From Marinobacterium lutimaris (GTDB lineage Bacteria; Pseudomonadota; Gammaproteobacteria; Pseudomonadales; Balneatricaceae), in the NCBI RefSeq assembly GCF_900108065.1, contig NZ_FNVQ01000003.1:310001-374000 (forward strand): a DNA stretch of 64,000 nucleotides, read 5' to 3'. Positions within the stretch are counted from its first letter, which is position 1. Each line of letters opens with the position of its first letter. The notes under the pieces were generated by a model that saw only the letters and a program-made list of their open reading frames with translations, had not been told where the DNA came from and searched no databases. Both the position numbers and the translations under genes were made by a program. This document shows positions 31,637-63,862 of the stretch, piece after piece.

Positions 31637-31666
31637 AAAAAGCCGGCCCCTGAAGGCCGGCTTTTT
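31637..31666 (+). terminator. rho-independent terminator after tannase copy 2
   Basis: AAAAAGCCGGCC (31637-31648) pairs with GGCCGGCTTTTT (31655-31666) around CCTGAA, with the T run inside and after the stem. Confidence 0.9.
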
Positions 31667-31762: not shown

Positions 31763-32000
31763 AACGCAGCGATCCATCCCCTTTGGCGAAGCCGAGCATC
31801 GCAGGCTGAAAGAGAAACAAGGGAAAGGCTGTTTGAGCCGCGAAGCGGTGACTTCCCTTGAGGCAGAACGCCTTTCCCGCTCTTTCAGCTGAGAAGCACA
31901 GGAAAGTCGGTGCAGCCGACCAAGCCTCAGGGGCGGTTTGGGATTGATAAGGTACTTGTCCGTACAAGTACCTTATCTCGCCAGCAGGCGAAACCGGCCT
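31763..32000 (-). repeat. structured dispersed repeat, copy A
   Basis: About 238 bases, most alike copies B and C when read on the minus strand. In that orientation it holds hairpin 1 TCGCC/GGCGA, hairpin 2 (31947-31959 with 31964-31976), the conserved core CAATCCCAAACCGCCCCT (31929-31946), hairpin 3 GTCGG/CCGAC (31906-31920) and a long arm pairing CTGAAAGAG...GGGAAAGG with CCTTTCCC...CTCTTTCAG. It lies between the convergent tannase 2 and haem ATPase genes. No open reading frame with protein character is present. Confidence 0.85.
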
Positions 32001-56365: not shown

Positions 56366-56454
56366 GCTTGCGCTTACTTCATGGGAAGCTTTTTAAACCA
56401 GGTGACTCGTTTAATTTTTTCGCGTGCCGAAGACCTATCAGCGTTTACTTAACT

Positions 56455-56665
56455 CCCGTTTCGCCTGCTGGCGAGCCAAGGGACTTGTGCGGACAAGTCC
56501 CTTGGCAATCCCAAACCGCCCCTGCTGCTTGATCGGCTGCGCCGATTTCCCTGTGCTTCTCGCCTGAAAGAGCGGGAAAGGAAACTCGCTTCGCTCAAAC
56601 AACCTTTCCCTTGTTTCTCTTTCACGCTGCGATGCTCGGCTGCGCAGAAGGGGTTGAAAAGCGGC
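56455..56665 (+). repeat. structured dispersed repeat, copy B
   Basis: About 211 bases within the 325-base gap between the convergent carboxypeptidase and dabA genes; the rest of the gap shows nothing. Hairpin 1 is TCGCC/GGCGA, hairpin 2 is GCCAAGGGACTTGT (56475-56488) with ACAAGTCCCTTGGC (56493-56506), the core CAATCCCAAACCGCCCCT is at 56506-56523, hairpin 3 is ATCGGC/GCCGAT, and the long arm CTGAAAGAGCGGGAAAGG pairs with CCTTTCCC...CTCTTTCA. Confidence 0.85.
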
Positions 56666-56690
56666 TGCGCTTAGCAAATTCCTGCCAAAC

Positions 56691-63413: not shown

Positions 63414-63553
63414 AACGGCGACTCAACTGGCATAAGCCACCCATAGTAATAATCCGCCTGTATGGCAGATGCTTTTGCATCTAGCTCCCTGTAAGGGAGC
63501 CTCGGCAAACCTTCCGACGAATTCAGGGATCGTCCATATCCGAGTCCTTTTTA

Positions 63554-63690
63554 AGGCCGGTTTCGGCTGCTGCCGAGCAAAGAGACTTGTGCGGCTTTCG
63601 TTGCTAAGTGAGTCCCTTTGCAATCCCAAACCGCCCCTAAGGCTTGGTCGGCTACGCCGACTTCCCTGCGCCAAAGGGGATAGATTGATC
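63554..63690 (+). repeat. structured dispersed repeat, copy C (short form)
   Basis: About 137 bases. Hairpin 1 is TCGGC/GCCGA, hairpin 2 is GCAAAGAGACT (63577-63587) with AGTCCCTTTGC (63611-63621) with one mismatch and a longer loop, the core CAATCCCAAACCGCCCCT is at 63621-63638, and hairpin 3 is GTCGGC/GCCGAC. Compared with copies A and B the long fourth arm is cleanly missing, while the terminal CGCCAAAGGGGAT is retained. Confidence 0.8.
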
Positions 63691-63765
63691 CGCTCAGATA
63701 ACTATGAGACATCGAGCCCCATTATCGCTGTGGCACGAAACAGGCCTAGCCTCGACTAAACGATC

Positions 63766-63786
63766 ACCACCTCCATAGGAGGTGGT
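63766..63786. other. isolated perfect hairpin
   Basis: ACCACCTCC (63766-63774) pairs perfectly with GGAGGTGGT (63778-63786) around ATA, then TTTAAG. It resembles terminal hairpins of IS200/IS605-type elements but no transposase is present. It could also be a terminator of lysE. Confidence 0.45.
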
Positions 63787-63802
63787 TTAAGAGCGACAAC
63801 AA

Positions 63803-63832
63803 AAAAGGGCCTGCATCTCTGCAGGCCCTTTT
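63803..63832. terminator. rho-independent terminator before the Tim44-like gene end
   Basis: AAAAGGGCCTGCA (63803-63815) pairs with TGCAGGCCCTTTT (63820-63832) around TCTC. The A and T runs suit both directions; it lies 30 bases past the stop codon of the minus-strand Tim44-like gene. Confidence 0.9.
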
Positions 63833-63862
63833 CTATTTGCCTAATTGGCGTAGCGGTTAAGC

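Follow-up and report, generated by a model that had tools for sequence, protein, structure and literature searches.

The window analysed here is a 64,000-nucleotide stretch (C20:310001-374000) of a 5.57-Mb draft genome. It contains three copies (A, B and C) of a hairpin-forming intergenic repeat, and all three lie in gaps between convergent genes, as an original prediction from the sequence had described. The coordinates that it gave were correct, with the core of A at 31775-31997 on the minus strand, B inside 56440-56680 on the plus strand and C at 63554-63690 on the plus strand. The copies, the hairpins of copy B (P1 to P6) and the adjoining terminators are as follows.

31637-31666: intrinsic terminator following the upstream gene (AAAAAGCCGGCC...GGCCGGCTTTTT), abutted by the right part of copy A
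31775-31997, minus strand: core of copy A with all arms present, its right part toward the terminator at 31637-31666
56461-56653, plus strand: core of copy B, from hairpin 1 through the closing GGGG
56461-56474, plus strand: hairpin P1 of copy B, TCGCC-TGCT-GGCGA
56475-56506, plus strand: hairpin P2 of copy B, 14-bp arms and a GCGG loop, with double changes in the family at 8 pairs
56506-56522, plus strand: conserved linker of copy B, CAATCCCAAACCGCCCC, whose final CCCC pairs with the GGGG at 56650-56653 to form P3
56531-56547, plus strand: hairpin P4 of copy B, with a TGC loop that reads c(GCA)g on the bottom strand
56549-56643, plus strand: long arm P5 of copy B, CCCTGTGCTTCTCG...CTGCGATGCTCGGCTGC, an arm absent in copy C
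56584-56601, plus strand: tip hairpin P6 of copy B, ACTCGCTTCGCTCAAACA, which contains d(GCGAAGC) on the bottom strand
63447-63803, plus strand: copy C in its extended form, with a left extension at 63447-63542 and a right extension at 63683-63803
About 63563-63679, plus strand: core of copy C without P5 and P6; CTGCGC direct repeats flank the deleted arm, with the junction at about 63667-63672
63801-63833: intrinsic terminator immediately beyond the right end of copy C

The common core of the three copies, CAATCCCAAACCGCCCC, has three exact matches in the window; with up to three mismatches allowed, four matches were found against 0.19 expected. Hairpins 1 to 3 have the predicted form in A, B and C, and the paired differences among the copies are genuine. 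The fourth arm is indeed missing from copy C: the ortholog in the near relative that we used for comparison, M. mangrovicola DSM 27697 (G003), retains it, and the deletion has brought together two CTGCGC repeats. An identical junction at CTGCGC marks the arm loss in the M. mangrovicola ortholog of L003, another copy in this genome, and the arm is retained in L003 itself. Such loss of an arm between repeats is the expected trace of slipped replication across a hairpin. Copy A has an ortholog in the same orientation in M. mangrovicola (91.96% identity across 3223 aligned columns). The M. mangrovicola assembly breaks within the ortholog of copy B (start of SMFU01000011 and end of SMFU01000002), perhaps a sign of another repeat at that place.

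The original prediction had staked its claim on further copies in the genome, and these are numerous: we count about 41 in total, made up of 40 places of ~200 bp (the best 40 of 69 candidates from a BLAST search with copy B) and copy C. Consistent counts were obtained with a 15-mer from the long arm (one mismatch allowed), which has 42 matches in this genome, 40 of them among the BLAST-derived copies, and 41 in M. mangrovicola. The core motif with at most two mismatches has 33 matches in the genome, compared with none for the reversed control. The core measures ~200 bp and the fully extended element ~450 bp, with five or six hairpins. In the orientation of copy B, P1 is followed by P2 (12-14 bp), the linker AATCCCAAACCG, P3 (CCCC..GGGG, enclosing the remaining downstream hairpins), P4 (a hairpin with a three-base loop), P5 (a long arm whose internal loops are conserved) and P6, a sixth hairpin at the tip that is hypervariable in sequence and goes beyond the earlier description. 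Nine copies in this genome, including C, carry extensions on both sides (~96 bp on the left and 56 to 122 bp on the right), and the remaining copies have partial extensions at most. Read on the bottom strand, the extended left end is GCCACCTGC-TATG-CAGGTGGATTTTTAC. An extended copy on C19 was considered as an 'empty' form lacking the core; it keeps hairpin 1 and is instead an internal deletion. This copy (L234, reverse strand ~1590-1700, G000:C19 ~45500) has lost most of P2 to P5. At L029, the right part of the element gives way to a short array of tandem GCCTGAAA units.

We assessed whether the paired changes hold across the family, using an alignment (A1) of 40 copies from which C was excluded owing to its missing arm. 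Across 56 pairs, 98.2% of 2236 cells form pairs, and 20 pairs show double changes. The alignment contains 200 double-change cells, compared with 57.6 ± 5.8 in shuffled alignments and at most 11 with slid structures. The covariation anticipated by the original prediction is therefore strong on the larger alignment, and its conclusion that structure matters is upheld. A second measure, the number of further pair types, was not above the shuffled level on A1 (275 of 500 shuffles were as high). The covarying pairs are nearly free of wobble: their 800 cells comprise 768 Watson-Crick, 17 A-C, 2 G-T and 13 other combinations, and 9 of the 17 A-C cells are concentrated in one pair. Wobble is not fully absent from the structure, as all 40 copies have G-U at two further pairs and 22 have U-G at one more.

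The pairing looks like DNA folding, on the bottom strand. In 37 of 40 copies P4 has a T-N-C loop with a C-G closing pair, and 32 of 40 contain C(TNC)G within P6, a motif whose bottom-strand reading is c(GNA)g. Hairpins of the d(GCGNAGC) type are described, in the portion of the source drawn on here, as extraordinarily stable DNA mini-hairpins (PMC6895277, citing Hirao 1994 and Yoshizawa 1997). Triloop hairpins in A1 with a C-G closing pair have TNC and GNA loops in a ratio of 52:1, compared with 106:107 in the background, and the few with a G-C closing pair lean the opposite way (TNC 1, GNA 5). In 28 windows of the wider superfamily described below, from which the tip was removed, the ratios are 10:1 with C-G closing and 0:3 with G-C closing. 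The bottom strand is the more stable one in 34 of 40 copies with DNA parameters and in 21 of 40 with RNA parameters. Loop and strand counts alike come from related copies and are thus not independent.

Placement relative to genes is strongly biased. Using a codon-usage script to call the gene neighbours, we found 26 of the 41 copies in this genome between convergent genes, 6 with both genes against the element, 3 with both genes in its direction and 1 between divergent genes; the remaining 5 have one flanking side without a called gene. No called gene overlaps any of the 41 cores. In 1.16 Mb of M. mangrovicola we found 27 copies, and 19 of the 26 that lie between called genes occupy convergent gaps, compared with 103 of 800 other gaps, although 6 of the 19 share two gaps and the number of independent sites is accordingly smaller.

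In fully extended copies the right end tends to lie at a terminator. By eye, this holds for 8 of the 9 doubly extended copies; the terminator sequence varies by site, that of L007 is weak and L002 has none. A strict detector (search distance ≤165 bp) is barely asymmetric in this genome, with a terminator on the right of 11 of 41 copies and on the left of 9 of 41, and 4 of those 9 left-side detections fall on the left hairpin of the element itself. The same detector is clearly asymmetric in M. mangrovicola (8 of 26 on the right and 1 of 26 on the left), and it reports terminators in 25 of 600 random windows. These counts are affected by terminators that are visible by eye and that the detector misses, such as those at L014 and L020. 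Inward pairing of neighbouring copies was considered as a general rule and rejected: within 6 kb, in this genome and the M. mangrovicola stretch, 5 pairs are inward, 1 is outward and 7 are tandem, which shows no clear bias.

To follow the element over time, we mapped the flanks of the copies in this genome to M. mangrovicola DNA. At least one flank was mapped for 20 copies and both flanks for 14, and these 14 sites were unselected for the content of the relative, although the contigs were picked for known copies. The relative is empty at 3 sites (L002, L009 and L016), carries an inverted element at 3 (L005, L014 and L015) and has an element in the same orientation at 8, of which 5 hold a divergent member. 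Thus, 8 of the 11 occupied sites hold an inverted or divergent member, with flanks that are ~88-97% identical. One of the three empty sites is clean: L016 is an insertion into the A-tract preceding a terminator stem, with TAAAAA on either side. At L002 and L009, a terminator or terminator-like hairpin stands in the empty site and is missing from the filled one. A left-truncated insertion at AAGCT microhomology was also found. At L014 a terminator is common to both species, and the element lies to its left here and to its right, reversed, in the relative, so that the right end points to the shared terminator in both. L015 has the same layout; the two terminators differ there in the inner half of the stem, and we are less sure that they are the same terminator.

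We then compared the occupants within sites. The comparison covers 16 ortholog pairs in the same orientation, of which 13 come from the mapped stretch and 3 from other loci; inverted sites were excluded, as were the pairs of C and L003 with their deleted arm. The pairs were split into resident, cargo-site and divergent groups after the data were seen. In nine resident pairs, 9 of 994 paired columns changed, compared with 24 of 778 unpaired columns, and the changed pairs comprise 9 one-sided and no double changes. The cargo-site pairs L202 and L203 have 5 one-sided and no double changes. The five sites with divergent occupants (L018, L024, L026, L200 and L201) have 11 one-sided and 30 double changes. 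Because resident orthologs show one-sided changes only, double changes distinguish lineages and are not seen accruing in copies that stay in place. In resident copies the stem columns change at a lower rate than the unpaired ones, so some host-level constraint is possible.

We consider it somewhat better than an even bet that the family is a non-autonomous, MITE-like mobile DNA element that acts by single-stranded folding of its bottom strand. An enzyme supplied in trans would recognise the folded strand and place it next to a second hairpin, that of the terminator; copies landing elsewhere would be purged by selection. Pairing would be maintained as only foldable copies get mobilised, which would yield double changes when lineages are compared and none among resident orthologs. 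The slower stem change in resident orthologs counts against the mobile reading, because a host-level role predicts the same. Like MITEs, the element is short (200-450 bp), multicopy (about 41 copies) and without an open reading frame. Degenerate CTNAGCGCA and TGCGCTNAG, candidate terminal inverted repeats, are visible by eye at the core ends in some copies, and the extended ends are not inverted repeats. A direct repeat that is a candidate target-site duplication, the TAAAAA on both sides, occurs at one of the three empty sites.

The mobilising enzyme may be gone from this genome, where it was not found among the reverse transcriptase (RT) and Y1 transposase families: there was no RT match and one weak Y1 match. 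The other seven genomes of the genus have 0 to 4 RT matches each, and 6 of the 8 genus genomes together hold 7 Y1 loci. When the element and its relatives were compared by BLAST with ~3 kb around each Y1 locus, they flanked none of the 7, and the matches were short (15 bases in a gene that resembles ComEA by eye, and 31 bases at 84% in L381). A resident RT or Y1 transposase is not supported as the partner.

The competing explanation that retains most weight, which we nevertheless think rather unlikely, is that the hairpins are transcribed by readthrough from the upstream gene and retained because they serve the host as RNA, either as a two-way transcription barrier or as a stabiliser of mRNA 3' ends between convergent genes. 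The convergent bias and the gene-free cores fit such a role, as do the greater conservation of resident stems and the RNA folds of copy B, which are very stable on the two strands (z of -3.9 and -3.5). RNA is disfavoured because G-T is nearly absent from the covarying pairs, because the loops and the DNA energies favour bottom-strand DNA, with DNA-type loops on one strand, and because stem changes in resident orthologs are one-sided only (9 one-sided, 0 double). Moreover, the occupant is inverted, divergent or absent at 11 of the 14 orthologous sites, and a separate terminator often adjoins the element. The suggestion of REP-like elements or an RNA accordingly stands as far as a dispersed, hairpin-forming repeat at gene ends is concerned; it is not a REP proper, and we do not favour RNA.

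Retro-insertion in the manner of a SINE, in which a bottom-strand RNA with its own hairpin and U-run would be reverse-transcribed from a primer in the terminator A-tract, is a doubtful alternative. The bottom-strand reading of the left end suits it, as do the insertion into TAAAAAA that leaves TAAAAA on either flank, the left-truncated insertion at AAGCT and the reported presence, in the part of the source used, of a terminator stem-loop upstream of the target of group IIC introns (PMC7923331). It is opposed by the lack of an RT match in this genome, by the small number of empty sites (three) and by Rfam searches in which group II intron RNA was absent from the window and five cargo loci at the gathering threshold and from nine further loci at E ≤ 1.

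We regard it as very unlikely that the paired changes are purely mutational, arising from strand switching during replication that copies one arm onto the other without structural selection. The near-perfect Watson-Crick arms with almost no wobble intermediates are what such copying would leave, and the arm deletions between short repeats suggest that the hairpins do form during replication; yet the 9 changed pairs in the nine resident orthologs are all one-sided, and double changes (30, with 11 one-sided, at 5 sites) appear only where the occupant differs. Least probable is a family of structured non-coding RNA genes with their own promoter and terminator, for although the core is flanked in nine copies by ~96 bp of common upstream sequence and 56 to 122 bp of common downstream sequence, and 8 of these copies stop at a terminator, the terminator sequences vary by site, that of L014 belongs to the site in both species with the element on opposite sides, and Rfam gave no relevant match.

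The Rfam searches returned no match in the window and the five cargo loci at the gathering threshold, and in nine loci at E ≤ 1 they returned only a sub-threshold rnk leader (E 0.95) and a trypanosomatid snoRNA (E 0.72), both outside the core; an RNA gene known to Rfam was thus rejected.

We compared the element with known dispersed repeats and folding DNA. In Pseudomonas fluorescens, the consulted sections of Silby 2009 (PMC2718517) describe R0-R200 as dispersed repeats of non-coding sequence, 50-352 bp in length; two of the families were proposed to be MITEs, and a Tail-repeat-Tail bias is explained as the least harmful location. The dispersal, the non-coding nature and the convergent bias resemble those of the element (PMC2718517). 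Unlike the element, 5 of the 12 P. fluorescens families consist of two inverted repeats around a core, and those sections of the account, which we compared by description, contain no terminator-facing rule and no bottom-strand triloops (PMC2718517). REPs are given as 20-40 bp in the part of Di Nocera 2013 used here (PMC3733652), which portrays REP/REPIN sequences as palindromic, mostly downstream of genes and often close together in opposite orientation, all of which resembles the element. The element differs in its ~200-bp core with several hairpins, and, in contrast to the RAYT/TIRYT association of REPs, it flanks none of the Y1 loci found in the genus.

The tip ACTCGCTNCGCTCAAACA also stands at the hairpin end of L290, L291 and L294 (~1500), from other genomes of the class, which by eye we take to be integron attC-like sites. 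Bottom-strand folding would be shared with attC sites, whose recombination as a folded bottom strand is reported in the part of the review consulted (PMC7923331). Unlike attC sites, the element has no cassette array, and its copies are solo, inverted or tandem. Group IIC introns resemble it in their insertion beside terminator stem-loops, as reported in the same part of that review (PMC7923331), and the element differs from group II introns in having no RT match in the genome and no Rfam intron match.

We found no published name for the family in a literature search that covered few subscription papers and no supplements, nothing relevant when searching by the P2 and P6 sequence strings, and no literature on Marinobacterium repeats. 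Repeats at gene ends are known, and the placement rule and the moving form mostly are not. This family offers a testable case through the one-sided terminator position of its extended copies, the DNA-type loops on a single strand and the change of occupant between sister species.

The element is part of a superfamily, apparently unnamed, that extends across proteobacteria. BLAST detected it in 11 of 57 genomes including this one, with ~70% identity in other genera, where the hairpin order is similar by eye despite differing sequences. A scan with the core pattern returned at least 112 stretches, of which 11 (10 from Marinobacterium and 1 from Pseudomaricurvus) match A to C well beyond the pattern. 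Matches to the P6 pattern ACTCGCTNCGCTCARACA were found in 22 of 398 genomes of the same phylum including this one, all of the same class, with up to 36 copies, and the reversed control of the pattern gave one match, in a genome with one match. Chromosomal elements of this kind may thus form a widespread class that awaits its mobilising enzyme. The best match among named records was Variovorax paradoxus, covering 79% of the query and lying in a convergent gap, and matches in Pasteurella and Paraburkholderia covered 18-30% of the query. A plasmid or phage vehicle was considered and rejected. Neither collection matched copy B or one related element. Three other superfamily queries returned, in turn, the Variovorax record with 79% coverage of the query, 12 records with coverage of up to 30%, from Paraburkholderia (7), Pasteurella (3), Pseudoalteromonas (1) and Aureibacter (1), and the Variovorax record a second time; one of the three was searched against phages and had no match there.

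Among the P6 pairs listed within 400 bases, 8 have their right ends inward, 1 outward and 4 are in tandem. At seven inspected sites, inward pairs enclose DNA of 35-49% GC, whereas the M. mangrovicola contig has 56% GC and the window 58%. One such site lies beside a gene that we read as a hydantoinase. In this genome, the inward pair there holds three genes without a Pfam or PADLOC match; at the same site, M. mangrovicola has a retron RT-protease (PADLOC RT-Protease_XI, E 8.3e-188) and G001 a GIY-YIG gene. Genome-wide, the count for low-GC islands near copies is 5 of 27, compared with 2.1 ± 1.3 for shifted copies, a weak excess that was reached in 94 of 2000 shifts. A speculative extension, to which we attach a low probability, is that the superfamily is bound to the chromosome and docks on terminators across Gamma- and Betaproteobacteria and that its facing pairs are exchange points for accessory or defence genes, presumably without an integrase of their own.

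Several minor observations concern the neighbourhood of the element and its relatives. A type XI retron gene lies at L375:424-2304 (G003:C2 ~143051-144931) in a stretch of 34.7% GC with inward copies on both sides. A 27-kb island of 39% GC at G003:C2:757123-784091 has no element copy within 600 bp. Genes resembling toxin-antitoxin genes (HTH and RelE/ParE-like by eye) adjoin relatives of the element at L276, L277 and L390 in three genomes, and the toxin-antitoxin-like neighbours in Variovorax are annotated as HigB and a regulator.
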